A DNA stretch of 64,000 nt, from assembly GCF_029714205.1 (NCBI RefSeq), contig NZ_CP121648.1, positions 7,293,501-7,357,500 on the forward strand, in the 5' to 3' direction. This DNA comes from Methylobacterium sp. CB376. Its GTDB lineage: Bacteria; Pseudomonadota; Alphaproteobacteria; Rhizobiales; Beijerinckiaceae. The first letter of the stretch is position 1. Each line of letters opens with the position of its first letter. Position numbers and translations under genes: made by a program. Of this stretch, positions 43,945 through 51,697 are shown piece by piece. Below the pieces are notes generated by a model. That model saw only the letters and a program-made list of their open reading frames with translations. It was not told the DNA's origin and made no database searches.

Positions 43945-44757
43945 TCAGCCGAACCGGCCGGTGATGTAGTCCTGGGTCTGGCGCTTGGTCGGAGTCATGA
44001 ACAGCCGGTTCGTCGGCCCGAACTCGATCAGCTCGCCGAGATACATGAAGGCCGTGAACTGCGAGATGCGGGCCGCCTGCTGCATGTTGTGGGTGACGAT
44101 CGCGATGGTGAATTCCCCGCGCAGCTGCTCCAGCAGCTCCTCGATGCGGCCGGTCGAGATCGGGTCGAGGGCCGAGGTCGGCTCGTCGAACAGGATCACC
44201 TCGGGCTTTTGGGCGACCGTGCGGGCGATGCAGAGGCGCTGCTGCTGGCCGCCCGACAGGCCCATGCCGGATTGCTTGAGCTTATCCTTGACCTCGTCCC
44301 AGAGGGCGGCCTTGCGCAGGGCCTCCTCGACGCGCTGGTCGAGGTCGGCCCTGCCGAGCCGCTCGTAGAGCCGGATGCCGAAGGCGATGTTGTCGTAGAT
44401 CGACATCGGGAAGGGCGTCGGCTTCTGGAACACCATGCCGACGCGGGCGCGCAGCTCGTTCAGGTCGATCGCCGGGTCGAGGATGTTGCGCCCGTCGAGC
44501 AGGATCTCGCCCTCCGCCCGCTGGTCGGGATAGAGCGAGTAGATCCGGTTGAAGGTGCGCAGCAGCGTGGACTTGCCGCAGCCCGACGGCCCGATCAGCG
44601 CGGTGACCTGCCGGTCGTGGAAGTCGAGGTTGATGTTCTTCAGGCCCTGGAAGGTCCCGTAGTAGAAGTTGAGGTTCTTGACCGCGAGGCGGACCGGGGC
44701 GGTCTCGTCGGCCGCGCCGGATTTGACGACCGGTGCGGCGGTGGCGGAGGCGCTCAT
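43945..44757 (-). CDS. pstB: Phosphate ABC transporter ATPase
   Basis: 270 residues. Walker [10 protein letters not shown] is at 56-64. The Q-loop is [15 protein letters not shown], the signature [16 protein letters not shown], Walker [13 protein letters not shown] and the switch His in THNMQQA. The PTPFPMSIY sequence is specific to PstB. It powers phosphate import through PstA/PstC. Confidence 0.97.
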
Positions 44758-44798
44758 CGGGGTTCTCCGGAGGATCGTCGGCGGGGGGCGGCGCGGTC

Positions 44799-45713
44799 TC
44801 AGCGGCCCCTGCCGCCGCGCAGGAACAGGCGGGCCGCGATCGACAGGCCCAGGATGGTCACGGTGATCAGCAGGGCGCCCGCCCAGGCGAGTTGGCGCCA
44901 GTTCTCGTAGGGCGAGAGGGCGAATTGGTAGATCATCACCGGGAGGTTGGCGACGCCGCCCATCAGGTTGGGGCTGAACCAGGAATTGTTGTTGAGCGCC
45001 GTGAAAAGGAGCGGCGCCGTCTCGCCCGCGATGCGCGCCAGGGCGAGCAGGATGCCGGTGACGATGCCGGCCTGCGCGGCCTTCCAGGTGACGGCGCGGA
45101 TCACGATCGAGGGCGGCGCGCCCAGGGCCGCGCCGGCCTCGCGCAGGGAGCCCGGCACGAGGCGCAGCATGTCCTCGGTGGTGCGCACGATCACCGGCGT
45201 CGCGATGATGGCGAGCGCCACGCCGCCGGCCCAGCCCGAGTAGCCGCCCATGGTGCGCACCATCACCGTGTAGACGAAGAGGCCGATCAGGATCGAGGGC
45301 GCCGAGAGCAGGATGTCGTTCAGGAACCGGATCGCGTCGGCGAGCTTGGCCGTGCGCCCGTACTCGGCGAGGTAGGTGCCGGCGAGCACCCCGACCGGGG
45401 TCGCCACCACGATGCCGATCAGCGTCATGACCAGGCTGCCGAGGATGGCGTTGGCGATCCCGCCCCCCTCCGAGCCGGGACCCGGCGTCACCTCGGTGAA
45501 CAGGGTCGGCGAGAGGCCGCGCAGGCCCTCGACGATCAGCATCAGCAGGATCGAGCCCAGCACGATCGCGCCGAGCGCCGTCGCCGCCGTGCAGAGGATG
45601 ATCAGCAGCCGGTCGGCGGTGCGCCGGCCGGCGCGGACGCGGCCCCAGGCTTGGCGCGCCGGTTCGGCGGTCGCGGCCTGGCCTGCCGTGGCGAGGGTGG
45701 TCCGGGCGTCCAT
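44799..45713 (-). CDS. pstA: Phosphate ABC transporter permease
   Basis: 304 residues with six membrane helices, the first at [38 protein letters not shown] and the EAA loop [20 protein letters not shown] (approximate) are typical of PstA. The N-terminal 30 residues are an unusually long Ala-rich cytoplasmic extension. It pairs with PstC. Confidence 0.94.
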
Positions 45714-45738
45714 GGCATCAGAGCTCCGTCGGGCGGGA

Positions 45739-46713
45739 TCAGGCGACCTTCACGCGGCGCACGAGCAGCCGGGCCACGATGAGGACGATGAAGGTGACGA
45801 CGAACAGGATGCAGCCGAGCGCCAGCAGGGCGTGCAGCTGCATCCCGTCCGCCTCGTTGAACTCGTTGGCGATGCGCGACGCGATGGTCGAGCCCGGGTC
45901 GAAGATCGAGGGCGACAGGCGGTTCGCGTTGCCGATCACGAAGGTCACCGCCATGGTCTCGCCGAGCGCCCGGCCGAGCCCGAGCATGATCGCGCCGATG
46001 ATCGAGACCGAGGCCTGCGGGACCAGCACGTGGCGCACGACCTCCCAGGTGGTGCAGCCGATGCCGTAGGCGCTTTCGCGCAGGACGGTCGGGATCTGGT
46101 CGAGCATGTCGCGGGTGATCGAGGCCACGAAGGGCACGATCATGATGGCCAGGATGATGCCGGCGGTCAGGATGCCGACCCCCGAGGGCACCTGCGCGTA
46201 GAGCAGCGTGCCGACGACAGGCAGGCCCTCGACGAGGTTCGAGACCGGCACCTGCACGAAGCGGGCGAAGAGCGGGGCGAACACGAACAGGCCCCACATG
46301 CCGTAGATGATGCTCGGCACCGAGGCGAGCAGCTCGATCGTCATCGCCACGGGCTTGCGCGCCCAGCCGGGGCAGAGCTGGGTGAGGTAGATGGCGATGC
46401 CGAGGGAGATCGGGACGCCGATCACCAGGGCCAGGAAGGCCGAGACCAGGGTGCCGATGATGGCGACGAGGGCTCCGTACTCCTCGCGCCCGACATTCCA
46501 GGCGCTCGAGGTGATGAAGCCGGGCCCGAAGGCCTGGAAGGCCGGCCAGCCGCCGTAGACGATCGAGGCGAGGATGCCGGCGAGCACCAGCAGCACCAGC
46601 AGCGCCGAGCCGAAGGCGGCGGCCTGGAAGAGGCGGTCCGCCAGGGGGCTCGGCGCGCCGCGCGCGGCCTTGGGGGCGGTGGCGAGAGCGAGGTGTTCGG
46701 ACAACGCGACCAT
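45739..46713 (-). CDS. pstC: Phosphate ABC transporter permease
   Basis: 324 residues. Helices start at [21 protein letters not shown]. The PstC-specific [18 protein letters not shown] and the cytoplasmic loop [22 protein letters not shown] are present. It partners PstA in the inner membrane. Confidence 0.95.
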
Positions 46714-46776
46714 CCGGATTTCCCTTCAGTGAGCCGCCTGTAGCGCGCGGAGCCGCCCGACGCGAGCCGTCGATGG

Positions 46777-46812
46777 GGCGCCCCCTCCGGCGCGAGGGCC
46801 GGAGGGGGCGCC
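46777..46812 (-). terminator. Strong hairpin between pstS and pstC
   Basis: GGCGCCCCCTCCGG (46777-46790) pairs perfectly with CCGGAGGGGGCGCC (46799-46812) around 8 nt, 11 bp after the pstS stop. As in other pst operons it probably attenuates or stabilises the mRNA, so that PstS exceeds the membrane components. Confidence 0.7.
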
Positions 46813-46822
46813 GGGTTGCGGC

Positions 46823-47863
46823 TCACATGCCGAGGACCGGCTTGCCGTCCTTGCCGGTGACCTTCTTCCACTCGTCCTGGATCAGGCCGACGACGGCGTC
46901 GGGCAGCGGCACGTAGTCGAGGTCGCTGGCGAGCTTGTCGCCGTTCTTGTAGGCCCAGGAGAAGAACTTCAGCACCTCGGCGGCGCGGGCCGGGTCGCTG
47001 GGGCTCTTGGGCACCAGGATGAAGGTGGCGGCGGTGATCGGCCACGCCTTCTCGCCGGCCTGGTTGGTCAGCGCGATGCCGAAGCCCGGGGCGGACTTCC
47101 AGTCGGCGTTGGCGGCGGCGGCCTGGAAGGCCTCGTCGCTCGGCTCGGGGAACTTGCCGGCCTTGTTCTGGAGCAGCGCCACCGGCAGCTTGTTCTGCTT
47201 GGCGTAGGCGTACTCGACGTAGCCGATCGCGTTCGGCACCTGCTTCACGACGGCGGTGACGCCCTCGTTGCCCTTGCCGCCCTGGCCGGCCGGCCAGCTG
47301 ATCGTCGTCGAGGCGCCGAACTCCTTCTTCCAATCGGCCGACACGTCCGACAGGTAGGTCGTGAAGATGCTCGTCGTGCCGGACGCGTCGGAGCGGTAGA
47401 CCGGCGTGATCACCGCGTCGGGGAGCTTCACGCTCTCGTTCAGCTTGGCGATCCTGGGGTCTGACCACTTCTTGATCTTGCCGGCGTAGATCTCGGCGAG
47501 GAGCTCGCCGGTGAGCTTCACCTCACCCGACTTCACGCCCTGGATGTTCACGACCGGGACGACGCCGCCCATCACGGTCGGGAACTGCACGAGCCCGTCC
47601 TTCTCGAGGGCCTCGCCCTTCAGGGGCGCGTCGGTGGCGCCGAAATCGACCGTGCGGGCCTGGATCTGCTTGATGCCGCCGCCGGAGCCGATCGACTGGT
47701 AGTTCAGGCCGACGCTGGCCTCCTTGCGGTAGGCCTCGGCCCACTTCGAGTAGACCGGGAACGGGAAGGTGGCGCCGGCGCCGGTGATGTCGGCCGCGAG
47801 GGCGGCGGTGGCGATCTGGGCGGTCGCGAGCCCGATGGCGAGCGCGGTGGCGAATCGTTTCAC
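46823..47863 (-). CDS. pstS: Periplasmic phosphate-binding protein
   Basis: 346 residues from GTG 47863, with GGAGAG upstream; longer frames lack a site. The signal peptide is FATALAIGLATAQIATAALA. The mature protein begins ADITGAGATFPFPVYSKWAE and has the phosphate-contacting SIGSGGGIKQI, DFGATDAPL and RSDASGTTSIF segments of PstS. It binds phosphate in the periplasm and delivers it to PstCAB. A triple Pho box lies 107 bp upstream. Confidence 0.96.
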   Translation of the reverse strand: MKRFATALAIGLATAQIATAALAADITGAGATFPFPVYSKWAEAYRKEASVGLNYQSIGSGGGIKQIQARTVDFGATDAPLKGEALEKDGLVQFPTVMGGVVPVVNIQGVKSGEVKLTGELLAEIYAGKIKKWSDPRIAKLNESVKLPDAVITPVYRSDASGTTSIFTTYLSDVSADWKKEFGASTTISWPAGQGGKGNEGVTAVVKQVPNAIGYVEYAYAKQNKLPVALLQNKAGKFPEPSDEAFQAAAANADWKSAPGFGIALTNQAGEKAWPITAATFILVPKSPSDPARAAEVLKFFSWAYKNGDKLASDLDYVPLPDAVVGLIQDEWKKVTGKDGKPVLGM

Positions 47864-47969
47864 GAAAGCTCTCCGTGTTCCGTCAATCTGACGCGCGGTC
47901 TGGGTCTCGCCTCGGGGCGAGAGGCTGTCCATCGCGGCGCGAGCGGTAGCCCCGCACGACGCCGCCCCT

Positions 47970-47998
47970 ATGACGGTTGCATGACGGTTGCATGACAT
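47970..47998 (-). promoter_or_regulatory. Triple Pho box upstream of pstS
   Basis: On the reverse strand three half-sites (TGTCAT, CGTCAT, CGTCAT) recur with an exact 11-bp period, joined by GCAAC. This matches PhoB direct-repeat operators. It lies 107-135 bp before the pstS start. Confidence 0.8.
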
Positions 47999-48033
47999 CG
48001 CCCTCGCCCTCCGCTCGAAGTCGCCGGGAGCAT

Positions 48034-48059
48034 GGGACGGTCCGGGGGGCTCGCGCGTT
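48034..48059 (+). promoter_or_regulatory. Candidate EcfG-type promoter for the 85-residue gene
   Basis: GGGAC (48034-48038), 17 nt, CGTT (48056-48059). There is one mismatch to the GGAAC -35 element. It lies 41 bp before the GTG at 48100. Confidence 0.35.
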
Positions 48060-48099
48060 ATCCTGCCATGGCAAGCTGGGAGCAGGTGAGGACCCCGCC

Positions 48100-48357
48100 G
48101 TGCAGGAGGCATCGACGACCGGGAGCGGGAACGGGCACGATTCGGAGCGCGCGGCGCTGCTCGCGCTGCATGCGGAGCGGGAGGGGCTGGAGCGCCGGCT
48201 CGCCCTCGCGCGCCAGCAGCGGCTCTACCTGTCCGATCCGGAGGCGATCGCGGCGGCCGAGGCGGAGGAGCGGGACCTCCTGGTGGACCTCGACCGGCTC
48301 CTGACGCGGATCCGGGCGGCGGAGTACCGGCGCCGGCCCGGCGGCCGGCCCTGGTAG
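48100..48357 (+). CDS. Small coiled-coil hypothetical protein (85 aa)
   Basis: GTG 48100 is preceded by GTGAGGA. The product is a single charged helix pair (ERAALLALHAEREGLERRLA, then ARQQRLYLSDPEAIAAAEAEERDLLVDLDRLL) ending in a basic tail. No family was recognised. It lies upstream of the EcfG gene on the same strand with a candidate EcfG promoter, so a stress-linked role is possible but unproven. Confidence 0.5.
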   Translation: MQEASTTGSGNGHDSERAALLALHAEREGLERRLALARQQRLYLSDPEAIAAAEAEERDLLVDLDRLLTRIRAAEYRRRPGGRPW

Positions 48358-48415
48358 GAGCGCCTCGGGGGATCCGGCCCGGCAACGAGCCCGGCTCGGG
48401 CGAGAGTCCGGCTCG

Positions 48416-48441
48416 GGAACCTTGGCCGTGCTTCGGCCGTT
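48416..48441 (+). promoter_or_regulatory. EcfG-type promoter upstream of the NepR-EcfG gene
   Basis: GGAAC (48416-48420), 17 nt, CGTT (48438-48441), an exact match to the EcfG consensus. It lies 223 bp before the start at 48665, consistent with autoregulation. The rest of the 307-bp gap (48358-48664) holds no supported gene. Confidence 0.6.
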
Positions 48442-48664
48442 GCCCCGGCGCGAGGCCAGGTTGCGGCCTCGCGCGTCACACGGGGTAGAGGAGGAGCCGA
48501 TGGCGATCGAGCAGGCGGGAGGCGCGGCGAGGGGCGGGCCCGGGGGGACCGCGCCGGAGACCGCTCGCGGCGGCGACCGGCGCCCCGGGCGCGCCTGACC
48601 TCCCCGCCCCCTCGTCCCCGGGCGGAACCGTCCGCCCCCGCCCCTCCCAGCGAAGAGTCCCCCC

Positions 48665-49387
48665 ATGCTCTACCCGAATGCCGCCACCCTCGCCCCGGCC
48701 GAGCCCAAGCCCTCCCTGCCCTCCACGGTGCAGCAGCACCTCGGGCGGCAGCTGCGGGAGGCCTACGCGGCGATCGAGACCGCCACCCCGGACACGGTCC
48801 TGGCGCTGATCGAGCGGCTCGAAGCCGCGCTCGCCGCCCAGGGGCGCAGCGTCGAGCCGGAGTTCCGCGACGGGCTCCTCTCCGCCCTGCCCTCGCTGCG
48901 GGCCTTCGCGCTCTCGCTCACCAACAATTCCGCCCGGGCGGACGACCTCGTGCAGGACACGATCCTGCGCGCCTGGCAGAACCAGCACCGCTTCCAGCCG
49001 GGCACGAACCTCAACGCGTGGCTGTTCACCATCCTGCGCAACGCCTTCTACTCGGAGCAGCGCAAGCGCATGCGCGAGGTGCAGGACGAGGACGGGACCT
49101 ACGCGGCGCGGCTGTTCTCGGCCCCCGACCAGGGCCACCGCCTGGACGTGCAGGACCTGCGCGCCGGCCTCGCCAAGCTGCCGCCGGACCAGCGCGAGGC
49201 GCTGATCCTGGTCGGGGCCGAGGGCCTGTCCTACGAGGAGGTCGCCCGGATCTGCGGCGTGGCGATCGGGACCATCAAGAGCCGCGTCAACCGCGCCCGC
49301 AACCGGCTCGCCGACCTCCTCGGCTACACGGAGGACGACCTCAACGGCGACCGGATGATCCAGTCCGCCATGGGCGAGGGCGCCTGA
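48665..49387 (+). CDS. ecfG: NepR-EcfG fusion: general stress ECF sigma factor with N-terminal anti-sigma-like domain
   Basis: 240 residues. From about residue 75 it is an ECF15/EcfG sigma factor: region 2 has ALSLTNNSARADDLVQDTIL, RAWQNQHRFQPGTNL and AWLFTILRNAFYS; region 4 has LPPDQREALILVGAEGLSYE and EVARICGVAIGTIKSRVNRA. Residues 20-58 (VQQHLGRQLREAYAAIETAT, then PDTVLALIERLEAAL) match the two-helix core of NepR (IGxxLRxxYxxV, then PDRFLxLLExL). NepR normally is a separate anti-sigma factor that holds EcfG until phosphorylated PhyR removes it. No start codon lies between the two parts, so they form one polypeptide. PhyR is not in the window. Confidence 0.85.
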   Translation: MLYPNAATLAPAEPKPSLPSTVQQHLGRQLREAYAAIETATPDTVLALIERLEAALAAQGRSVEPEFRDGLLSALPSLRAFALSLTNNSARADDLVQDTILRAWQNQHRFQPGTNLNAWLFTILRNAFYSEQRKRMREVQDEDGTYAARLFSAPDQGHRLDVQDLRAGLAKLPPDQREALILVGAEGLSYEEVARICGVAIGTIKSRVNRARNRLADLLGYTEDDLNGDRMIQSAMGEGA

Positions 49388-49388
49388 C

Positions 49389-49436
49389 GCCGCGCCCGAG
49401 GGGTGCCGCGCCCGAGGAGTGCCGCGCCCGAAGAGC
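49389..49436. repeat. 16-bp tandem repeat, 3 copies
   Basis: GCCGCGCCCGAGGGGT, GCCGCGCCCGAGGAGT and GCCGCGCCCGAAGAGC follow one another directly after the ecfG stop codon. Confidence 0.85.
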
Positions 49437-49447
49437 GCCACGGCCGC

Positions 49448-49483
49448 GAAGCCCCTCCGTCCCGGCCGGGACGGAGGGGCTTC
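49448..49483 (+). terminator. Perfect 18-bp hairpin after ecfG
   Basis: GAAGCCCCTCCGTCCCGG (49448-49465) is followed directly by its exact reverse complement (49466-49483). It is a very strong intrinsic hairpin between convergent genes. Confidence 0.8.
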
Positions 49484-49498
49484 GTCGTATCATCCGAA

Positions 49499-49620
49499 AT
49501 CCGACGAATTGCGTCGCAATGCGGATTTCGGCTTCGCTCAAGCGCCGCGCGGGCTCGTGATCCGACGAATTGCGTCGCAATGCGGATTTCGGCTTCCCTC
49601 AAGCCCGCGCGGCGGGGTGC
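49499..49620 (-). repeat. REP-like element, reverse orientation, duplicated unit (copy D)
   Basis: A 36-bp unit starting TCCGACGAATTGCGTCGCAA and ending GGATTTCGGCTTC occurs at 49500 and 49561, holding the palindrome ATTGCGTCGCAAT. Between and after them lie CTCAAGCGCCGCGCGGGCTC and CTCAAGCCCGCGCGG, the reverse complement of the tail found at copies A-C. It follows the stop of the NepR-like gene. Confidence 0.8.
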
Positions 49621-49621
49621 C

Positions 49622-49822
49622 TCACCGCGTGCGCTGCAACTCGCGCTCGCGGTGCCGCAGGTGCAGCAGCAGCTGGATCTGGTCGGCGGGCAGCGGCAGC
49701 CCGTCCGTCGTCTTCTCGTAGAAGGCCCGCAGAACTTGACCGAGCCGTTTCTGAATCTCGGCACCCAGTCGAGGCAGCCGGCGGTCGGGCGTCATGTCCG
49801 GCGTCACGGCGTCCTGCTCCAT
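49622..49822 (-). CDS. NepR-like small protein, candidate anti-sigma factor
   Basis: 66 residues from ATG 49822, preceded by AGGGGGA. The stretch LGAEIQKRLGQVLRAFYEKT, then TDGLPLPADQIQLLLHL, follows the NepR pattern (IQxxLGxxLRxxYxxV, P/D, LLxxL). It faces the EcfG gene across a terminator and a repeat. If it is a true NepR, this locus holds one fused and one free copy. An alternative is an unrelated short helical protein. Confidence 0.45.
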   Translation of the reverse strand: MEQDAVTPDMTPDRRLPRLGAEIQKRLGQVLRAFYEKTTDGLPLPADQIQLLLHLRHRERELQRTR

Positions 49823-50023
49823 CGCGATCCCCCTGCGCGCTCAGGGGCCCCGGCAACGGGGCGCCCCGCGAGCCGAGAGGATCGGCCCCCATGGTTAAGG
49901 AAAGGTTAACTTTCAGACTTCGTTCACCATGCCGGCGCCCGGAAGCGGGGCGGCGCGACTCCGCTCACCCGAGCTTAACCATCGCCGCCGGGCTGTCCAG
50001 GGCGGGAGCCCGGCGAGCCCGCC

Positions 50024-51697
50024 TCAGGCCTCGGCGGCCTGGAGCAGCCGCGCCGCGGCGGCGCGGGCCTCCTCGGTGACGGTGGCGCCCGCGAGCATGC
50101 GGGCGATCTCCTCGCGGCGGGGCGCCTCGGCGAGGCGCGTCACCCGGGTGGCGACGCGGTCGGAGCCCTTCACGGCCTCCTTGGCGATCAGGAAGTGGCT
50201 GGCGGCGCGGGCGGCGACCTGCGGCGCGTGGGTGACGGCCACGACCTGAACCCGGTCGGAGAGCCGGGCGAGCCGAGCCCCGATCGCGTCCGCCACCGCG
50301 CCGCCGACCCCGGTATCGATCTCGTCGAAGATCAGGGTCGGGGCGGAGCCCTTGTCGGCCAGCACGACCTTGAGGGCGAGCATGAACCGCGACAGCTCGC
50401 CGCCCGAGGCGACCCTCATCATCGGCCCGGGGCGGGTCCCGGGATTGGTCTGGGCCCAGAACTCGACCCGGTCGAGGCCGGCGGGATCGCGGCTCGCCTC
50501 GTCGGTGGCGATCTCGGTGAGGAAGCGGGCGCGCTCGAGCTTGAGCGGCGGCAGTTCCGCCTGCACGGCCTTGTCGAGCTTGCCCGCCGCCCTGCGCCGC
50601 CCCTCGCTGAGGGCGCGGGCGGCCTTCAGGTAGGCCGCCTCGGCGGCGGCGAGGTCGGCCTCAAGCCGCCCCAGGGTCTCCTCCCCGGCATCGATCGCCG
50701 CCACGTCCGCGGCGTAGCGCTCGCGCAGGGCCGCGAGGTCGTCCGCCGCCACGTCGTACTTGCGGGCGGCCGCCCGCAGGGCGAACAGGCGCTCCTCCAC
50801 CCGCTCGAGCTCGCGGGGATCGAATTCCGCCGCCTGCAGGGCGTGTTCGAGGGCGTCGCGGGCCTCGTCGAGGGCGACCAGGGCGGCGTCGAGGGCGGTC
50901 ACGCAGGGATCGACCAGGGCCGGCGCCTGCGCGGCCCGGCGCTCCAGCTTGCGCAGGGCCGCCGAGAGGTGGGCGGCGGGGGAGCCCTGGCCGCCGACCG
51001 CGTCGAGGGCCTCGTTGAGGTCGCGGGCCACCTTCTCGCCCTGCTGCATGGCGGTGCGGCGCTCGGCGAGGTCGGCCTCCTCGCCGGGCTTCGGCGCGAG
51101 CGCGCCGAGCTCCTCCACGGCGTGGCGCAGGAAATCCGATTCCTTGCGGGCGGCCTCGACCCGGACGCGGTGCTCGGCGAGGCGCGCGCGCGCCTGCCGC
51201 ACGCCCCTCGACGCCTCCGCCACCGCCGCCTGCCGCTCCTGCAGGTTGCCGAAGGCGTCCAGTATGGCGCGGTGGGTGGTCGGGTCGGCGAGCGCCCGGT
51301 CGTCGTGCTGGCCGTGGATCTCGACGAGGGCCGCCCCGATGGCGCGCAGCACCTGCACGCCCACCGGCTGGTCGTTGACGAAGGCGCGGGTGCGCCCGTC
51401 CGCGACCTGGACCCGGCGCAGCACGAGGTCGCCCTCGGTGTCGAGGTCGGACGCGGCCGCGATGGCGCGGGCCGGGTGGTCGAGGGGCACGTCGAAGACG
51501 GCGGTGACCTGCCCCTGCGCCTCGCCGTGGCGCACGAGCCGGCCGTCGCCGCGCCCGCCCAGGGCGAGCGTGAAGGCGTCGAGCAGGATCGACTTGCCGG
51601 CCCCCGTCTCGCCGGTCAGCACGCTGAGGCCGTCGCGGAAATTCAGCTCGAGCTTGTCGATCAGGACGATGTCGCGGATGGCGAGCTGAACCAGCAT
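50024..51697 (-). CDS. recN: DNA repair protein RecN
   Basis: 557 residues from MLVQLAIRDIVLIDKLELNF (ATG 51697). Walker A is GETGAGKSILLDA and the N-terminal VEIHGQHDDRAL motif is RecN-specific. A long coiled coil is at about 150-370. The signature is RVASGGELSRFMLALKVVL and Walker B is LIFDEIDTGVGG. This SMC-like ATPase acts in double-strand break repair. It is the last gene of the dcw-lpxC-bamD run. Confidence 0.95.
   Translation of the reverse strand: MLVQLAIRDIVLIDKLELNFRDGLSVLTGETGAGKSILLDAFTLALGGRGDGRLVRHGEAQGQVTAVFDVPLDHPARAIAAASDLDTEGDLVLRRVQVADGRTRAFVNDQPVGVQVLRAIGAALVEIHGQHDDRALADPTTHRAILDAFGNLQERQAAVAEASRGVRQARARLAEHRVRVEAARKESDFLRHAVEELGALAPKPGEEADLAERRTAMQQGEKVARDLNEALDAVGGQGSPAAHLSAALRKLERRAAQAPALVDPCVTALDAALVALDEARDALEHALQAAEFDPRELERVEERLFALRAAARKYDVAADDLAALRERYAADVAAIDAGEETLGRLEADLAAAEAAYLKAARALSEGRRRAAGKLDKAVQAELPPLKLERARFLTEIATDEASRDPAGLDRVEFWAQTNPGTRPGPMMRVASGGELSRFMLALKVVLADKGSAPTLIFDEIDTGVGGAVADAIGARLARLSDRVQVVAVTHAPQVAARAASHFLIAKEAVKGSDRVATRVTRLAEAPRREEIARMLAGATVTEEARAAAARLLQAAEA

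Follow-up and report, generated by a model that had tools for sequence, protein, structure and literature searches.

The window, by which we mean the whole 64,000-nucleotide stretch of Methylobacterium sp. CB376 DNA analysed here, contains a gene in which a NepR-like segment and an EcfG-type sigma factor are joined as one protein. NepR is the ‘brake’ protein that normally restrains EcfG, the sigma factor of the stress response. With its NepR-like N-terminus of ~55 residues, the gene belongs with the NepR–EcfG fusions of the Methylobacteriaceae, a kind already described; both the fusion and the NepR origin of the segment are nearly certain. The reading that we favour, at roughly even odds (a probability of about 0.5), is that the tethered and weakened NepR segment occupies the site at which NepR would bind the attached sigma factor, shielding that factor from stand-alone NepR; combined with an EcfG-type promoter, this would make the protein a stress amplifier. 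Features of the locus are collected in Table 1.

Table 1. Features of the fusion gene and its immediate surroundings, in window positions
Feature	Position	Strand	Basis
EcfG-type promoter GGAAC-N17-CGTT, 223 nt before ATG	48416..48441	+	pattern search; predicted
32-codon remnant in the csbD position	48500..48598	+	start region resembles CsbD of L026/L033 by eye
NepR-like/EcfG fusion gene, 240 aa, ATG start	48665..49387	+	open frame; orthologues found
NepR-like two-helix segment, residues 20–58	48722..48838	+	custom HMM, AlphaFold2 helices; Pfam below cut-off
Linker, residues 59–66, without internal start codon	48839..48862	+	codon reading
Sigma region 2, residues 75–137	48887..49075	+	Pfam PF04542 (Sigma70_r2), 61.9 bits, above cut-off
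Sigma region 4, residues 164–215	49154..49309	+	Pfam PF08281 (Sigma70_r4_2), 62.1 bits, above cut-off
66-aa ORF facing ecfG, NepR-like first helix	49822..49622	-	NepR HMM 13.7 bits, 0/200 shuffles

Reading along the gene from its 5′ end, we see in-frame start codons at codon 1 (ATG), codon 22 (GTG) and codon 96 (GTG). The second of these falls within the first NepR-like helix, and codons 23–95 are free of any start; in agreement with the first-pass annotation, which had held that no ATG, GTG or TTG separates the NepR part from the sigma factor. As no start codon separates the NepR-like core from region 2, the product is a single polypeptide. Neither a stop nor a frameshift interrupts the frame of the extension in any of 13 loci (the window plus L023–L034, all from named Methylobacterium records, with the sequence of L023 masked at its end), and third-position GC across the extension lies between 0.94 and 1.00. 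On both counts we reject a frame error or a mis-called start as the source of the fusion; the frame error in other strains that had been named as a danger to the claim is found in none of these loci.

The sigma factor itself is of the EcfG/ECF15 type, as judged from regions 2 and 4 (Pfam), from the NCBIfam model NF009199 (235.3 bits against a cut-off of 219) and from its closest solved relative in a PDB search, 5uxx_A (E = 8e-54)—a Bartonella quintana sigma factor crystallised with NepR—an assignment made from these three sources rather than with an ECF15 group model.

That residues 20–58 correspond to the two-helix core of NepR had been proposed from sequence pattern, with a search against the Pfam NepR family (PF18557) as the suggested check. 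Run on residues 1–71, this search returns an E-value of 0.00077 at 19.5 bits, which is below the curated cut-off of 25.7 bits; run on the whole fusion protein, it aligns residues 23–55 (E = 0.0048, 16.9 bits). At neither length does the window copy reach curated membership of the family, and an NCBIfam search of residues 1–71 gave no NepR match. Sub-threshold matches of this sort are no proof on their own, because a genome-wide PF18557 search at E up to 1 also finds matches in eight of 14 control genomes, above the cut-off in one. Among relatives of the protein, PF18557 scores above the cut-off for orthologue P0003 (92% identical; 28.5 bits) and for fusion P0029 (35.4 bits), and below it for orthologue P0004 (23.0 bits). 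With an HMM built from 26 stand-alone NepRs, the extension scores 33.3 bits; none of 200 shuffles scores as high, the best reaching 10.5 bits. (The seeds were 25 ORFs found near ecfG in the order but outside the genus, plus the genome's own canonical nepR at L001; L041, L043 and L049, as ORFs of at least 200 aa, and the fused L037 were omitted.) Homology to stand-alone NepR extends across both helices, as seen from this HMM and from AlphaFold2, which places helices at residues 20–35 and 43–58 of the fusion protein and at 26–44 and 50–65 of P0029. The proposed NepR core is thereby upheld by the custom HMM and by P0003, with the protein's own Pfam score falling short.

Compared with stand-alone NepR in complex with EcfG (PDB: 5uxx) or PhyR (PDB: 3t0y, 4qic, 2lfw), the segment has the same two-helix core and hydrophobic positions, but is fused in cis instead of forming a small separate protein encoded beside ecfG, scores below the Pfam cut-off, and lacks the Arg and Phe of the NepR ‘PDRF’ motif, which are replaced by Thr44 and Val45. 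Each of these two motif residues is present in 77% of the 26 stand-alone NepRs; across extension-bearing rows (97 filled of 98) the Arg is kept in 65% and the Phe in 60%. Eight positions of the NepR scaffold are 93–99% conserved over the 98 rows, all of which were chosen for having the extension.

Whether such fusions had already been described in Methylobacterium was left as a query by the first-pass annotation, and the answer is yes. PMC4814048 (2016), cited throughout from the sections drawn on here, presents a NepR-like extension on the EcfGs of M. extorquens as a probable ancient fusion confined to the Methylobacteriaceae, credits the observation to Francez-Charlot et al. 2009, and gives as not known whether the extension adds features to the sigma factors. 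The same sections report that NepR bound only truncated EcfG1 (in vitro and by two-hybrid) and, weakly, truncated EcfG5 (by two-hybrid); that NepR is pulled down in vivo by full-length EcfG1, which also complements a sextuple mutant; that HA-tagged EcfG1 and EcfG2 complement the same mutant; and that EcfG2 of strain AM1 seems constitutively active. Two NepR homologues of AM1, META1p1275 and META2p0735, co-precipitate PhyR, with no binding to EcfG detected (PMC4814048). EcfG1–EcfG6 of Methylobacterium (Methylorubrum) extorquens AM1 are like the window gene in carrying a NepR-like N-terminus of ~55 residues on an EcfG, in occurring as several paralogues, and in a phyR locus without ecfG. They differ in number and in control: AM1 has six ecfG genes, none of them preceded by an EcfG-type promoter according to the cited sections (PMC4814048), whereas here there are 11, one of which is plain, with a conserved promoter on the window copy. 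A sigma factor and an anti-sigma part also share one polypeptide in IutY/ECF243 and in ECF36, although these involve transmembrane parts and proteolysis in place of a short N-terminal NepR segment (PMC8999054, in part). The sections of PMC8103513 and PMC8999054 drawn on here discuss other ECF factors with fused regulatory parts and make no mention of the NepR–EcfG fusion.

Eleven EcfG paralogues are found in the 7.69-Mb genome (E below 1e-54, with two weaker ECF matches excluded from the count). Ten are positive with the NepR HMM, at 14.4 to 33.3 bits; the eleventh, L017 (C1:5902179-5902712), is negative and is the sole paralogue without a NepR-like extension. Secondary loss of the extension from L017 was considered and rejected, as this copy groups with the plain EcfGs of other genomes in the order.

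Moving outwards from the genus, 62 of 121 genomes drawn from the order (our own included) match at an E-value of 1e-40 or better, and outside the genus most alignments start at residues 48–69; that is, without the extension. Earlier starts are seen without an intervening stop in G068 C26 (at residue 32), G092 (37) and G052 (41), and across stops in G104 (18), G105 (22), G099 (24), G068 C12 (26), G073 (38) and G030 (39). At two loci, L039 and L054, nepR ends in TGA and TAA respectively and is followed by ecfG in the same frame, with one stop codon between the two genes. By eye, L047 (the G068 C26 locus, cut at the contig end) has an ecfG frame without a NepR part and a separate NepR ORF. Such a separate NepR ORF is present in all 28 loci fetched outside the genus (L038–L065, out of 60 matching genomes), seven of which had supplied seeds of the search model; a regular-expression search for NepR upstream of ecfG had recovered it in seven of 29 loci, where the HMM gave 28 stand-alone copies plus the fused L037. 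In a draw from the family, 126 of 149 genomes match at E 1e-45, with unbroken alignments to residue 19 or lower in seven of seven genomes of the genus and in at least two other genera (g113, g117). Public names among the listed homologues include Microvirga, and several fusions are publicly annotated as ‘NepR family anti-sigma factor’.

A tree of 55 sigma-domain sequences was built from 32 proteins chosen among the 120 listed of 7998 scored homologues (P0053 and P0105 being dropped) and from 27 chosen loci (L046, L050 and L057 being dropped), with absence of the anchor motif as the ground for dropping in each case. One side of its 93/83 branch, which is not among the starred branches, holds 22 plain EcfGs, L017 included; the opposite side holds all 30 rows scored as fused together with three labelled plain. 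If the scored labels are taken at face value, four changes are needed on the tree, and its starred branches force four, not one. Of the three plain-labelled rows, P0010 proves to carry a diverged extension (3.8 bits), P0087 resembles a metagenome chimera and P0098 is a short record of 173 aa; it is only because these rows were re-read that we arrive at one origin. A single origin, with plain EcfG ancestral, is therefore our reading of the sequences rather than the raw count. It fits what is seen at L039 and L054: an ancestral nepR–ecfG operon, with both genes in the same frame, would have lost its intervening stop, most simply once, and the fused gene would then have multiplied to give the ten copies in this genome. 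The in-frame operon state and the tree lend sequence-based support to the fusion origin proposed in PMC4814048. As a separate observation, the metagenome proteins P0087 and P0105 resemble assembly chimeras of two sigma genes, of a sort that would mimic loss of the extension if counted uncritically.

Upstream of the fusion gene we find the exact GGAAC-17-CGTT element reported in the first-pass annotation. The pattern GGAAC-N16/17-[CG]GTT occurs twice in the window on both strands combined, against 0.57 expected under a first-order Markov model, and 203 times genome-wide against 90 for the reversed pattern; a same-strand element within 600 nt of the match start is found for only one of the 11 paralogues, the window copy. 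All 13 of the 13 orthologous loci have GGAAC-N16/17-CGTT upstream of ecfG; paralogue L035 has no such element upstream. In 12 of 12 aligned loci the stretches GGAACCT and CCGTTG are invariant, with variable surroundings. Between promoter and ecfG, L026 and L033 have an intact csbD (Pfam CsbD, 58.7 and 64.3 bits), a gene listed as a direct stress-response target in Sphingopyxis granuli (PMC7083833, in part); no CsbD is found at this place in the other nine aligned loci, and the 32-codon remnant in the window has no Pfam match. From that remnant we take csbD to have been lost rather than inserted. That the promoter persists in loci lacking csbD is best accounted for by its now serving ecfG; the promoter in this orthogroup seems, on comparison of these loci, to have been inherited from csbD. 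For the stress-induced second EcfG of Caulobacter and Sphingomonas, too, the main EcfG is expected to drive the paralogous gene (PMC4814048), but this second EcfG is not described in the cited sections as NepR-fused, and the apparent csbD origin of the promoter sets the window copy apart from it. As far as our searches show, what is new in detail is the conserved promoter of this orthogroup with its link to csbD, along with the tally of 11 paralogues; a literature search found no titles or abstracts dealing with how the orthogroup came by its promoter or with its csbD. In the leader, an Rfam search of 48000–50100 at E up to 0.1 gave no match to a known structured RNA.

CsbD-like ORFs are also seen in L024, L028, L029 and L031, some 1.0–1.3 kb after the ecfG start and on the other strand, and in L011, beside an ecfG paralogue. 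These are 33–44% identical to the CsbD of L026 (tblastn), such that csbD occurs near ecfG in several different layouts.

How might the fused protein work? In the reading that we favour, the weakened NepR segment, on a tether of ~8 residues, would lie across the surface of the attached sigma domains where NepR docks, keep stand-alone NepR off them, and be displaceable by RNA polymerase. Since an EcfG-type promoter is retained in the orthogroup, synthesis of the protein is expected once the general stress response has been switched on, and the fusion sigma so produced would act as a feed-forward or positive-feedback amplifier. We infer occlusion in cis, displacement by RNA polymerase and the amplifier role; the first of these fits, by analogy, with the finding that NepR bound EcfG1 and, more weakly, EcfG5 only when these had been truncated (PMC4814048). 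Occlusion would have to be incomplete, because full-length EcfG1 both complements and pulls down NepR in vivo (PMC4814048); together with the seemingly constitutive EcfG2, this also indicates that the extension is no tight lock in every copy. Against the favoured reading stand the lack of a clamp in predicted structures (see below), Thr44 and Val45 in the PDRF motif, a constraint on the segment much weaker than that on sigma2 and sigma4, the 223 nt between putative promoter and ATG, and the four changes forced by starred branches of the tree. If the extension does shield the sigma factor from NepR, then a fused anti-sigma part would free its sigma from the brake, the opposite of what its name implies. 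The orthogroup makes a clean test case in combining a fused sigma factor, a conserved self-type promoter and, in the same genome, the plain EcfG paralogue L017.

Among other readings, one that we consider possible though unlikely is that the segment mainly binds phosphorylated PhyR, either tethering the sigma factor or acting as a PhyR ‘sponge’, and does not cover its own sigma. The behaviour of META1p1275 and META2p0735, which co-precipitate PhyR and for which no EcfG binding was detected (PMC4814048), is in keeping with this, as is the presence elsewhere in the genome of phyR with a canonical nepR. These last two are neighbours at L001, where the PhyR domains score above the cut-off and the stretch separating the genes carries EcfG-type elements on both strands; this 3.1-kb locus contains no EcfG match of the genome, as in AM1. 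Saying that, the window copy lacks the Arg and Phe of PDRF, and the cited sections of PMC4814048 hold no PhyR-binding test of an EcfG extension.

A similarly tentative view would have the segment as the leftover of an old fusion, without any part in regulation and kept only since translation or folding would suffer from its removal. In 66 pairwise comparisons among 12 orthologues (the near-identical L023 being omitted), pN/pS is 1.00 for residues 1–17 and 0.36 for residues 18–57, falling to 0.20 in the linker and to 0.05 and 0.03 in regions 2 and 4, respectively; the NepR-like segment is thus constrained, but far less so than the sigma domains. A value about seven times that of sigma2 is what a vestige might show, and full-length EcfG1 works while AM1 EcfG2 looks constitutively active (PMC4814048). 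A vestige sits less easily with the drop from 1.00 in the adjoining leader to 0.36 in the segment, or with the conserved hydrophobic scaffold of the 98 rows selected for the extension.

The AlphaFold2 model of the fusion protein (pLDDT 79, pTM 0.43) holds sigma2 and sigma4 apart, at 24 Å rmsd to NepR-bound 5uxx and about 9–11 Å to RNA polymerase-bound SigH; that of P0029 (pTM 0.45) lies at 13.8 Å to 5uxx and about 19 Å to RNA polymerase-bound SigH. The two models differ in domain arrangement and neither matches the NepR-bound one, in comparisons from Foldseek tables that give no residue ranges and, for the first model, from VIA-align rows of similar outcome that mostly cover residues 56–225, contacts of the extension being judged indirectly. 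The clamp in cis across regions 2 and 4, envisaged in the first-pass annotation as holding the sigma factor off until PhyR~P displaces the extension, does not appear in either model, a result that by the annotation's own criterion counts against it, though only weakly at such pTM values. Although such a clamp could draw on the NepR homology of the segment and on the masked NepR site of EcfG1 and EcfG5, the activity of full-length EcfG1 in vivo, complementation by HA-tagged EcfG1 and EcfG2, and the seemingly constitutive EcfG2 (all PMC4814048) make strict release by PhyR~P improbable.

Returning to the shielded amplifier that we favour, a further step, which we regard as doubtful, would be that, with csbD lost, its EcfG promoter came to stand before an EcfG shielded by NepR, such that the response sustains itself after the signal ends. 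A stress-induced sigma factor would then no longer be switched off by stand-alone NepR.

A second NepR-like gene had been reported to face the fusion, and this holds in part: the facing 66-aa ORF scores close to the weakest fused paralogue (14.4 bits) with the NepR HMM and none of its shuffles equals it, but the score is weak and there is no Pfam match. Its homologues in L033 and L026 reach 14.7 and 14.2 bits (0/200 shuffles each). By tblastn the ORF is found in three of 12 orthologous loci, at 100% (L023), 60% (L033) and 46% (L026) identity; a match in L031 (E = 0.003, 34% over 41 aa, on the other strand) was set aside as chance. From these scores, the facing ORF is plausibly a diverged NepR paralogue. 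Elsewhere, L007 has an 88-aa frame with a NepR-like first helix (19.2 bits, PF18557 positions 1–20 only) that may be a decayed nepR.

A 36-base element occurs in two exact copies, at 49500–49535 and 49561–49596, in the interval from ecfG to the facing ORF. Genome-wide there are 23 copies with up to three mismatches (control, 0), several of them paired ~61–68 bases apart. Before the fusion gene, at 43945–48000 on the other strand, we see phosphate ABC transporter-like genes that by eye are PstB-, PstA-, PstC- and PstS-like.
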